This document shows, piece by piece, positions 6,389 to 59,250 of a DNA stretch of 64,000 nt. The notes beneath the pieces are model-generated. The model was not told where the DNA came from. It saw only the letters and a program-made list of their open reading frames with translations, and searched no databases. Made by a program: the position numbers and the translations under genes. Source of the DNA: Terrihabitans soli (GTDB lineage Bacteria > Pseudomonadota > Alphaproteobacteria > Rhizobiales > Methylopilaceae); assembly GCF_014191545.1 (NCBI RefSeq), contig NZ_AP023361.1, positions 524,501 to 588,500 of the forward strand, read 5' to 3'. Numbering within the stretch: the stretch's first letter is position 1; each line of letters opens with the position of its first letter.

Positions 6389-6473
6389 AATCCGCTCCGC
6401 ATCGCGAGCCCCCGCCCACGAAGTCTAGAACGGCCCGCTTGTGGTTACCAAACGGTTAAAATCGGGGAGTTCG

Positions 6474-42314: not shown

Positions 42315-42836
42315 TCAGGCGCCGGTGAAAGCCGTGCGCAGAAGCGCGAGCTGGCTTTCGATCGGGTTGGAGCGCACGGGCTCTTCGGCTTTGCCGTTGA
42401 TCTGGTTTTCCAGCATCAGAACGCGGCCCTGCAGGCGTTCGGTGCGGTCGACAAGCTCGCGCAGCCGTTCCGGCAGGCTCTCAAAGGTCTCGATGGCGAC
42501 GGTCGAGCGGCCGGTCGTCAGCTTCACTTTCTGCTTTTCCTGACGGGCCTGTTCCTGGTTCATCTCGCCTTCATTGGCGGCGCGCTGGATCAGGAGCCAG
42601 GACGCAATCTGCATCAGGCGGGTGGTGAGACGCATGCTTTCGGTCGCGTAAGCGAGCGCGGCAGCGCGGGCGAGCTTGCGGCTCTCCTCACGGCCTTCTC
42701 CGTCGAGATAGGCAGCCGTTTCTTCGACCAGAGCCATGCCCTCGCGGAACAGCGTGCGGAAGCTTTCGGAAGAAACGAGCTTCTGGCCGAAGGAAACGAA
42801 GCCCTCATCGGTCAGGTTTTCGGACGTCTCACTCAT
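42315..42836 (-). CDS. rcdA: Cell-cycle factor RcdA (DUF1465)
   Basis: RcdA is an adaptor that helps the ClpXP protease degrade CtrA at the G1-S transition in Caulobacter. The 173-residue protein has the DUF1465 core FREGMALVEETAAYLDG, then ESRKLARAAALAYATESMRLTTRLMQIASWLL and QRAANEGEMNQEQA. It forms a helical bundle. The ATG at 42836 (MSETSENLTDEG) is taken; an ATG two codons upstream is also possible. Upstream are a CtrA-like box (42936-42950) and a candidate sRNA. Identity by direct resemblance. Confidence 0.9.
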   Translation of the reverse strand: MSETSENLTDEGFVSFGQKLVSSESFRTLFREGMALVEETAAYLDGEGREESRKLARAAALAYATESMRLTTRLMQIASWLLIQRAANEGEMNQEQARQEKQKVKLTTGRSTVAIETFESLPERLRELVDRTERLQGRVLMLENQINGKAEEPVRSNPIESQLALLRTAFTGA

Positions 42837-42935: not shown

Positions 42936-42950
42936 TTAACCAATGGTTAC
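42936..42950. promoter_or_regulatory. CtrA-like box upstream of rcdA
   Basis: TTAA-CCAATGG-TTAC, one mismatch from TTAA-N7-TTAA, with the TTAACCA half typical of CtrA sites; about 100 bp upstream of the rcdA start. CtrA regulation of rcdA is known in Caulobacter; the match here is motif only. Confidence 0.5.
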
Positions 42951-42996
42951 CGATGCGGCCCGGCCGCCCGCGGGGCTCCGGCCCGGCGAGGATCAT

Positions 42997-43022
42997 AAAA
43001 AAGAGCCGCCGGGGGGCGGCTC
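42997..43022 (-). terminator. Rho-independent terminator (sRNA candidate and/or DUF1192)
   Basis: Read on the minus strand: GAGCCGCC, loop CCCC, GGCGGCTC, then TTTTTT; an 8-bp perfect stem. Lies 148 bp after the DUF1192 stop. Confidence 0.9.
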
Positions 43023-43086
43023 TAGTCTGATGACAGGGAGGCGTCAAACAGAGCGGCGCGGTGCCGCTCCGAAATCCAGAAACCTG
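42997..43086 (-). ncRNA. Candidate CtrA-controlled trans-acting small RNA
   Basis: On the minus strand a perfect CtrA box lies 17 nt before a CATACT -10-like hexamer (43097-43092), so transcription would start near 43086. The roughly 90-nt transcript folds into hairpin 1 ATCCAG-GTTT-CTGGAT (43089-43074; its first bases may lie just upstream of the start), hairpin 2 GAGCGGC-ACCGC-GCCGCTC (43069-43051), a 28-nt single-stranded linker with CCTCCC (43041-43036), able to pair with a ribosome-binding site, and a terminator GAGCCGCC-CCCC-GGCGGCTC plus six T. No stop-free coding frame of note. The alternative is that the hairpin merely ends the DUF1192 transcript 150 bp upstream. It should be compared with Rfam RF00519 (suhB/mmgR) and rhizobial alpha-r families. 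Confidence 0.55.
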
Positions 43087-43091
43087 GATAC

Positions 43092-43129
43092 AGTATGTAA
43101 ATAACTCAGAAAGCTTAATGCTACGTTAA
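43092..43129 (-). promoter_or_regulatory. Perfect CtrA box with -10-like element
   Basis: TTAATGCTACGTTAA (43115-43129) is an exact TTAA-N7-TTAA. On the minus strand 17 nt separate it from CATACT (43097-43092). That geometry, box at -35 and normal spacer, is the one of CtrA-activated promoters. There is no gene start close behind it, only the small RNA candidate. Confidence 0.6.
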
Positions 43130-43169
43130 CGAGCGAGTATCTACCGCCTTATCGCAGAGGTGGCAGCGT

Positions 43170-43367
43170 TCAGCGAGGCCCGAATACGCTGTCGGCGGCG
43201 GCGCGCTGCGCCGATTTCTTCTGGCGAGCTTCCTCCAAGCGGGAGATTTCAGCTTTCAGAAGCGCGATACGCTCGTCAAAGTCTTCAATCGACAGGGAAT
43301 AAAGGTCCTGGCCGATCTCGTGGGCAACCTTCCGGATCGGTCTGTCCTCGTCGGGCATGGCACCCAT
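43170..43367 (-). CDS. DUF1192 family protein
   Basis: 65 residues. The ATG at 43367 follows an AGGGAG ribosome site. The sequence MGAMPDEDRPIRKVAHEIG, then LYSLSIEDFDERIALLKAEISRLEE (a coiled coil) is the DUF1192 core, known only in alphaproteobacteria. Function unknown. It is transcribed divergently from trcR with a 169-bp gap. Confidence 0.9.
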   Translation of the reverse strand: MGAMPDEDRPIRKVAHEIGQDLYSLSIEDFDERIALLKAEISRLEEARQKKSAQRAAADSVFGPR

Positions 43368-43536
43368 TGTTCGCTCCCTTTCCGCGCCGGTTTGCAAAAA
43401 GTGTAACGCAGAACAGCCGGAAAATCGCTGGAGGCGTTTGCCTCAATCGGGCGGCATCTCTATATTCCGCCCATTCCGGTCATTTTAGTTGGACCATGCT
43501 TCGCCCCGGCGGGCGAAGCGCACAGGAGATATTGCT

Positions 43537-44259
43537 ATGGCCACAGCGCCCCTCATGCCGAAGGCAACGGCCGTCTGGCTCGTCGACAACACCAGTCTGT
43601 CGTTCGCCCAGATCGCGGATTTCTGCCATCTGCACGAGCTTGAGGTGAAGGCCATCGCCGACGGCGACGCCGCCCAGGGCATTCGCGGCATCGACCCGAT
43701 TTCGGGCGGCCAGCTGGCCCGCGAAGAGGTCGAGAAGGCGGAGAAGGATCCGGCCTACCGGCTGAAGGTTCTGGAAAGCAAAGTGCGCCTTCCCGAGGTC
43801 AAGCGCCGCAAGGGCCCGCGCTACACCCCGGTCTCGCGCCGCCATGACCGTCCGAACGCCATTCTCTGGCTGCTCCGCAATCATCCGGAGCTGAAGGACA
43901 GCCAGATCATGCGTCTCGTCGGCACGACGAAATCGACTATCCAGACGATCCGTGAGCGCACGCACTGGAACATCGCGACCATGACGCCGATCGATCCGGT
44001 GGCGCTGGGCCTGTGCTCGCAGCTCGATCTCGATTTTGAAGTGAACAAGGCTTCGAAGAACGCTCCGCCGCGCCCCGAGGGTGAGGAAATCGGCGGCCAG
44101 ACGCTGCTGCCGGCGGAAGTTACAACGGCGCCGGGCAGCCAGCCCTTTGCCGATTTCGAGCCGAGCGAGCGCCGCCGCGACGAAGAAGAAAAGATCGACG
44201 CCGACTCGGTCTTCGCCAAACTCAAAAATCTGCGCCGCGACGACGAAGACGAGCAGTAG
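43537..44259 (+). CDS. trcR: Cell-cycle transcriptional regulator TrcR (DUF1013)
   Basis: 240 residues with a CAGGAGAT ribosome site. The helical N-terminus includes KATAVWLVDNTSLSFAQIADFC and LHELEVKAIADGDAAQGIRG. A sigma-factor-like or helix-turn-helix-like segment is seen in PNAILWLLRNHPELKDSQIMRLVGTTKSTIQTIRER, preceded by a basic stretch KRRKGPRYTPVSRRHDR. TrcR associates with RNA polymerase and sigma factor at active genes in Caulobacter-type alphaproteobacteria. The C-terminus is acidic. Identity by DUF1013 resemblance. Confidence 0.92.
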   Translation: MATAPLMPKATAVWLVDNTSLSFAQIADFCHLHELEVKAIADGDAAQGIRGIDPISGGQLAREEVEKAEKDPAYRLKVLESKVRLPEVKRRKGPRYTPVSRRHDRPNAILWLLRNHPELKDSQIMRLVGTTKSTIQTIRERTHWNIATMTPIDPVALGLCSQLDLDFEVNKASKNAPPRPEGEEIGGQTLLPAEVTTAPGSQPFADFEPSERRRDEEEKIDADSVFAKLKNLRRDDEDEQ

Positions 44260-44315: not shown

Positions 44316-44504
44316 TTAGTGAAGGGTCTCGCCGGGCGGGGCCGTCTTCAGGCGAGTGATCTCGTCCTTAAGCTTGAGCTTTTGCCGCTTCAGTTCCGCA
44401 AGGCGGGTTTCATTGGCTGAAGGGCGGGAGAGTTCGTCTTCGATCTGCCGTTCGAGCGTCTTGTGCTTATTCTCAAGCGCTGAAAGATGCGAAGCTATCG
44501 ACAT
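44316..44504 (-). CDS. YdcH/DUF465 family coiled-coil protein
   Basis: 62 residues. The ATG at 44504 follows a TTAGGAGGAGA ribosome site. The DUF465 pattern is seen in LSALENKHKTLERQIEDELSRP and ETRLAELKRQKLKLKDEITRLK: a small helical hairpin with the conserved LK-x-x-KLxLKDE end. Function unknown. It is arranged divergently with another DUF465 gene 173 bp away. Confidence 0.88.
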   Translation of the reverse strand: MSIASHLSALENKHKTLERQIEDELSRPSANETRLAELKRQKLKLKDEITRLKTAPPGETLH

Positions 44505-44676
44505 TCGATCTCCTCCTAATGCTGAGGAACCCCAGACTGACACGGGTTCGTCACGCTGTCGATTCGGCACTAAGACTTAGGCACATTCTGGGCCGGGCCT
44601 TGAAGAAAGCTTCCAGTCGCAGCAATACTTCGCCCGATAAGGGGCCTCTTGCGGGGGCCGGAGCGGAACTCCCAGC

Positions 44677-44889
44677 ATGACCGAGGAACAGGACGACGAA
44701 AGCGCGCTGCGCGCCGAACTGTCCCGCCTCGAAGAGGAGCATCGCGATCTCGACGGCGCGATCTTTGCGCTCGAGCGCCTGGGTACGGGCGACCGGCTGC
44801 AGGTTCAGCGTCTGAAAAAGAGAAAGCTCCACCTCAAAGACCGCATCTCGCATATCGAAGACGCGCTGACGCCGGACATTATCGCCTGA
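44677..44889 (+). CDS. Second YdcH/DUF465 family coiled-coil protein
   Basis: 70 residues: MTEEQDDESALRAELSRLEEEHRDLDGAI, then LQVQRLKKRKLHLKDRISHIED, the same LKxxKLxLKDRI end as the divergent neighbour, so the two are paralogues. The suhB-like gene converges 5 bp beyond its stop. Function unknown. Confidence 0.88.
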   Translation: MTEEQDDESALRAELSRLEEEHRDLDGAIFALERLGTGDRLQVQRLKKRKLHLKDRISHIEDALTPDIIA

Positions 44890-59076: not shown

Positions 59077-59097
59077 CACCTATATTACTGGGGCGGG

Positions 59098-59250
59098 CGC
59101 TGCCGGGTTTGTTAGGAAACTGTATTCCCGGGGCCTTATCGATCTCAACGGGAGCTGTCCCTGTCCTTGCCCCTGGGCTTGGGCATATGGCGCCCACCTA
59201 CTTAGGTAGGTTCCCGGGATCGAAAAATCCGACGGCTTGGTGGCTCCGCA
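59098..59250 (+). ncRNA. ssrS: 6S RNA
   Basis: Global regulator RNA that binds sigma-70 RNA polymerase. Supported by position (directly after zapA, before the cyclo-ligase gene region) and by folding: the ends pair (GCCG...TTT at 59102-59110 with AAA...CGGC at 59224-59236), an inner arm TCCCGGG (about 59129) with CCCGGGA (about 59212), an open centre, and a GC-rich apical arm (GCCCCTGGGCTTGGGC). The GGGGCCTTATCGATCTC segment looks like the alphaproteobacterial 6S 5' bubble side. Exact ends are not defined. Confidence 0.75.

Follow-up and report, generated by a model that had tools for sequence, protein, structure and literature searches.

The gap upstream of rcdA in Terrihabitans soli carries an element that, judged by its match to the Rfam model, is a local copy of the known small RNA (sRNA) family BjrC1505 (RF02356). 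When all evidence is considered jointly, the best explanation, and one that we regard as likely, is that this copy has its own CtrA-activated promoter, ends before rcdA, and acts in trans as an anti-Shine-Dalgarno RNA. The alphaproteobacterial cell cycle is governed by the master regulator CtrA, to which, to our knowledge, very few sRNAs have been connected. The window, that is, the whole stretch of DNA analysed, is 64 kb long. On its minus strand, the elements run in the order DUF1192 gene, CtrA-type box, GCTTTC, TATTTA, hairpin 1, hairpin 2, CCTCCC, terminator, and rcdA. The features, in window coordinates, are as follows.

43489 to 44259, plus strand: open frame of trcR (TrcR/DUF1013 cell-cycle regulator; PF06242, E 7e-65), divergent
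43170 to 43397, minus strand: DUF1192 gene (PF06698, E 4e-21), upstream of the sRNA and co-directional
43115 to 43129, minus strand: CtrA-type box TTAACGTAGCATTAA, an exact match to TTAA-N7-TTAA
43109 to 43114, minus strand: GCTTTC element directly after the box, of moderate conservation (0.33-1.03 bits)
43098 to 43103, minus strand: predicted -10 element TATTTA, 11 nt after the box, in columns conserved across 120 loci
42997 to 43089, minus strand: BjrC1505 sRNA, predicted transcript of about 93 nt, with the 5' end at 43089-43091 and the 3' end in the T run
43074 to 43089, minus strand: hairpin 1 (ATCCAG/CTGGAT), with two pairs changed on both sides among 27 sequences
43049 to 43071, minus strand: hairpin 2 (GAGCGGC/GCCGCTC), 7-9 bp, from the fold and from U-A to C-G and A-U to G-C covariation
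43036 to 43041, minus strand: CCUCCC loop resembling an anti-Shine-Dalgarno sequence, within the near-invariant GUUUGACGCCUCCCUGU
42997 to 43023, minus strand: Rho-independent terminator, a 9-bp stem followed by six T, from the fold and a terminator scan
42936 to 42950, minus strand: rcdA-proximal CtrA-like box GTAACCATTGGTTAA, a 7/8 match with a perfect counterpart in Rhizobiaceae
42315 to 42836, minus strand: rcdA (DUF1465; PF07323, E 5e-56), downstream of the sRNA and co-directional

Locus organization and family assignment

The initial annotation had placed the RNA in a 333-bp gap and linked it to rcdA. Both statements were borne out: 333 bp separate the DUF1192 stop (43170) from the rcdA start (about 42836), and rcdA lies immediately downstream and co-directional in 161 of the 165 loci with enough downstream sequence. 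The DUF1192 gene is upstream in 145 of 177 eligible loci, and the TrcR gene is divergent and further up in 61 of 173. The true start of trcR in the window is probably at 43538. The title of Delaby et al. (2021), as cited in PMC12864828, presents TrcR as a cell-cycle factor tracking with RNA polymerase. Just past trcR are two adjacent small DUF465 (PF04325) genes, at 44316-44570 (minus strand) and 44677-44889 (plus strand). The window also contains a 6S/SsrS RNA (RF00013) at 59094-59250 on the plus strand (76 bits, cut-off 46.4).

A cmscan search against Rfam matched RF02356 at 42996-43136 of the minus strand (81.7 bits, E 8e-14, cut-off 50). The alignment spans the full model (positions 1-140 of 140) without truncation, and the same sequence and structure are found over its whole length, with the two 5' hairpins, the GACGCCUCCCUGU loop, and the terminator all present. 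The RNA had been presented as an unannotated sRNA; this part of the earlier description has to be given up, since the family is already in Rfam. The window copy differs from most members in hairpin 2, whose CUCCUG loop is common to most homologues and lost in the genus of the window. Positions 1-40 of the model cover conserved promoter DNA (the box and the -10 element), which Rfam counts as RNA, and the weak pairs drawn through these positions are probably spurious. BjrC1505 is single-copy in the T. soli genome. Sampling across the order found it in 245 of 297 genomes, and sampling across the class in 30 of 289; in one large family, which is probably Rhizobiaceae, 64 of 81 genomes carry it.

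Membership in other families was rejected. RF00519 (suhB/mmgR), which the initial annotation had named for an Rfam check, also has CCUCCCU beside a terminator hairpin, but the element reached only 18.8 bits where the cut-off is 41; its SorY score was far under the cut-off. The Rfam scan of the window gave no match to EcpR1, and the neighbours of the RNA are rcdA and DUF1192, not rpmG. BjrC1505 is said to have been named in 2012 by Madhugiri and colleagues as an sRNA of Bradyrhizobium japonicum. The 2012 paper reportedly verified the RNA in B. japonicum and R. palustris, and its level was reportedly lower in soybean nodules. The RNA itself is known. In the literature searched, which covered few subscription journals, there was no report linking BjrC1505/RF02356, or CtrA together with an sRNA, to rcdA. 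As far as that literature shows, four points seem to be new: the class-wide CtrA promoter, its corrected anatomy, a Rhizobiaceae branch that Rfam misses, and the different reading of the ChIP signal at rcdA.

Structure of the RNA and conservation of its promoter region

The 91-nt RNA folds with a free energy of -42.6 kcal/mol (z = -4.7), and none of 200 shuffled sequences folded equally well. Across 27 diverse sequences, standard pairs occupied 96.6% of pair cells, as against 40-55% when the partners were slid. Two-sided changes were found in nine pairs versus 3.3 in shuffles, and none of 500 shuffles reached nine. In the terminator, compensatory changes were counted in five of eight stem pairs. 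As judged from the alignment, the BjrC1505 RNA is under structural selection. The motif GUUUGACGCCUCCCUGU is near-invariant across the 27 aligned homologues and is kept in distant lineages. Both hairpins of the initial annotation were recovered, as was its terminator with six T, for which the fold and the scan give a stem of 9 bp. The CCTCCC described there as unpaired is present; its predicted place, however, is the loop of a weak 4-5-bp hairpin (UGACG/UGUCA) and not a single-stranded linker.

The perfect TTAA-N7-TTAA reported at 43115-43129 was confirmed as TTAACGTAGCATTAA, the sole perfect copy within the window. With up to one mismatch, eight such sequences occur in the window versus 2.4 expected; further one-mismatch sites lie at 6445, 11099, 11149, 19374, 19394, and 63006 and include two close pairs. 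Because the RF02356 model contains the box, Rfam hits are no clean test of its conservation, and the CCTCCC region alone, matched exactly, was therefore used to fetch BjrC1505 loci. Among the 118 loci with enough upstream sequence, a box scoring at least 7/8 was present in 116, 88-102 nt before the CCTCCC end, versus 0.12% in control windows of the same size (21 positions) from the same loci; these loci are related sequences, so that the counts overstate the number of independent observations, an effect eased by the drift of the spacer and the depth of the lineages. They include named records of Bradyrhizobium, Afipia, Devosia, Methylobacterium, Bosea, Stappia, Hyphomicrobium, and Sneathiella.

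Over a non-redundant set of 120 loci, the information content is 1.25-1.93 bits in the columns of the half-sites and 1.10 bits at the following C, but only 0.05-0.44 bits at positions 5-10 of the spacer. Near-invariant half-sites around a drifted 7-nt spacer are the pattern expected of a DNA-binding site and not of RNA folding. A TTAA-N7-TTAA at promoter position and conserved in relatives is what characterizes the CtrA regulon, and it is found here.

The CATACT that had been proposed as the -10 element does lie 17 nt past the box, but its columns (43092-43097) are unconserved (0.03-0.36 bits in the 120 loci), and a -10 there would place the start within hairpin 1. It was rejected in favour of TATTTA (43103-43098): a conserved T-A-T/A stands at offsets 26-28, beginning 11 nt after the box, with the consensus TATnAC. 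By the usual -10 spacing, transcription is predicted to start at about 43089-43091, at the foot of hairpin 1, and not at about 43086; the -10 and start of the initial annotation are thus off by about 3-6 nt. In some lineages (loci L048, L053, L060, L084, and L175), an extra TTAAC/GCGTAA element occurs in the spacer just before hairpin 1 and may serve as an alternative -10 or as a third half-site. The conserved box and -10 between DUF1192 and the RNA support the earlier view of an sRNA with its own promoter. Box and hairpins are kept in relatives, the outcome on which that reading had been staked, and it was not refuted.

Lineages without adjacent rcdA and the Rhizobiaceae

In one set of loci without rcdA downstream, box and RNA were kept in all five; the same combination also occurs without rcdA downstream in L241-L244, L251, L252, and L254. 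The gene after the sRNA in Sneathiella-like loci is a Cys/Met PLP enzyme in place of rcdA, and in two Sneathiella-like genomes (G337 and G463) rcdA lies about 42 kb from the sRNA. The box stays with the RNA where rcdA is elsewhere and is therefore not merely an rcdA leader element. In the Sneathiella-like loci L241-L243, L156, and L178, the box is TTAATTGTAATTTAA nearly without variation.

A second box scoring at least 7/8 is present in the gap between terminator and rcdA in 31 of 180 loci (17%), versus 0.8% of controls. Loci of Rhizobiaceae (n = 15) were fetched by the RcdA protein alone, and 430 nt upstream were read. Within this length, the distal box is perfect in 10 of the 15, and a second perfect box (TTAACCCTTTCTTAA-like) stands ahead of rcdA in 13. 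Most of these loci show a distal box, a diverged RNA containing UUUUCUCCCUGUUUUACCUUGAGAGCCGC, a terminator, a proximal box, and rcdA. The Rhizobiaceae RNA copies tested scored under the Rfam cut-off or gave no score. Among these loci are genomes closest to S. meliloti pSymB (80-81% DNA identity), and Sinorhizobium-like genomes carry a diverged sRNA copy flanked by two perfect boxes.

In S. meliloti, a CtrA ChIP-seq signal was found at the rcdA promoter, as a peak that does not distinguish the sRNA box from the one close to rcdA, and rcdA expression was unchanged on CtrA depletion (PMC4433202). With the diverged Sinorhizobium sRNA lying between two boxes, the sRNA box may be the source of the CtrA signal, which may explain why CtrA is at the rcdA promoter while rcdA is unaffected by depletion. 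Differential RNA sequencing of agrobacteria mapped multiple starts ahead of rcdA in each of the three lineages, and the authors interpreted these starts as rcdA promoters (PMC10469942). The distal one may be the start of the sRNA.

Alternative explanations and proposed function

The constant linkage raises the alternative that the stretch is mainly a CtrA-driven leader of rcdA. Partial termination at 42997 would leave the remaining transcripts to read into rcdA, the sRNA would be an attenuator product, and a loop would run from CtrA to RcdA and on to CtrA proteolysis. The constant position of rcdA in nearly all eligible loci agrees with this, as do the Bradyrhizobium-type loci, in which a further box scoring 7/8 or better was generally not found between terminator and rcdA, and the statement that CtrA targets rcdA directly in Caulobacter (PMC4433202). 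We nevertheless consider a leader unlikely and reject it as the main reading where it is taken as the sole function. Box and RNA persist without adjacent rcdA (L156, L178, and L241-L244, with the Cys/Met enzyme or another gene next), including the genomes with rcdA some 42 kb away; the 17-nt near-invariant motif exceeds what an attenuator needs; a separate rcdA-proximal box is present in the window and in Rhizobiaceae; and rcdA of S. meliloti is unresponsive to CtrA depletion.

CtrA might instead repress the promoter, so that the RNA would be made when CtrA is absent, in S phase. The box, at -39 to -25, overlaps the -35 region, where a bound protein can block polymerase. Yet the promoter scan gave no -35 hexamer apart from the box, and the distance from box to -10 is constant, as it is at promoters that depend on an activator; boxes through which CtrA activates typically occupy this position. 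The reported decrease of BjrC1505 in soybean nodules would likewise fit CtrA activation, and repression seems rather improbable to us. It would be very surprising if the element were no more than the 3' end of the DUF1192 transcript, terminator included, beside a box that arose by chance, even though that gene is on the same strand and upstream in most eligible loci: almost every locus has a fixed box and -10 separating the RNA from DUF1192, a chance box is expected in about 0.1% of loci, and the RNA body covaries and holds an invariant motif.

The CtrA-activated sRNA, the reading that we prefer, would operate as follows. At a sigma-70-type promoter, the CtrA box at roughly -39 to -25 would replace the -35 region, 11 nt ahead of the -10 TATTTA. 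CtrA~P would most likely bind the box and activate transcription, and the RNA should then peak while CtrA is active. Transcription would most likely begin and end as predicted, stopping at the Rho-independent terminator ahead of rcdA. The near-invariant GACGCCUCCCUGU loop would be presented in trans to Shine-Dalgarno regions of mRNAs, and pairing with them would lower translation; anti-Shine-Dalgarno action is the most likely function of the loop.

A typical genome among the 31 scanned has about 20 sites with the Shine-Dalgarno complement CAGGGAGG-N-ATG, most of which are ordinary Shine-Dalgarno sequences. The T. soli genome has five distinct sites, only one of which precedes a plausible gene start. 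Two sites with 12-nt complementarity (CAGGGAGGCGTC) were rejected as targets because their frames look spurious, and a site at a 1-Cys peroxiredoxin gene was rejected because GGGAGG is kept only within the genus. The gcrA start regions shared no complementary site. Neither the scan of 31 genomes nor the gcrA comparison yielded a BjrC1505 target.

Three known sRNAs resemble the window RNA in part. CcnA of Caulobacter is, by description, likewise a non-coding RNA behind a CtrA box and acts on ribosome-binding sites of cell-cycle mRNAs; it differs in its length (182 nt), its place at the replication origin without linkage to rcdA, and its CCCC loop, which pairs with ctrA and gcrA (PMC8959179). 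EcpR1 of S. meliloti is a conserved rhizobial trans-sRNA of similar length with a link to the cell cycle, but it lies near divK beside rpmG, is stress-induced, and uses a GC-rich SL1 seed against gcrA and dnaA (PMC4414408). GspR of S. meliloti also belongs to the CtrA circuit, but it is limited to Sinorhizobium, lies between SMc03844 and SMc03845, has no known promoter signature, and directly represses ctrA (PMC5928217).

On a wider scale, we put forward tentatively, as a possibility that could well prove wrong, that BjrC1505 is an ancient, class-wide sRNA of the CtrA regulon. Together with rcdA (CtrA proteolysis) and trcR (an RNA-polymerase-bound cell-cycle factor), it would form a conserved CtrA-output cluster, within which an anti-Shine-Dalgarno RNA made under CtrA~P would silence a set of mRNAs in the CtrA-high phase. 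The promoter box of the diverged version in Rhizobiaceae, Sinorhizobium included, would explain the ChIP signal assigned to rcdA. The prediction is that the sRNA accounts for at least part of the CtrA signal ahead of rcdA; if true, this would account for the failure of S. meliloti rcdA to respond to CtrA depletion. In a large group of bacteria, plant symbionts among them, this sRNA has a CtrA box that is almost universal, which makes it a likely component of the bacterial cell-cycle circuit that has so far been overlooked.
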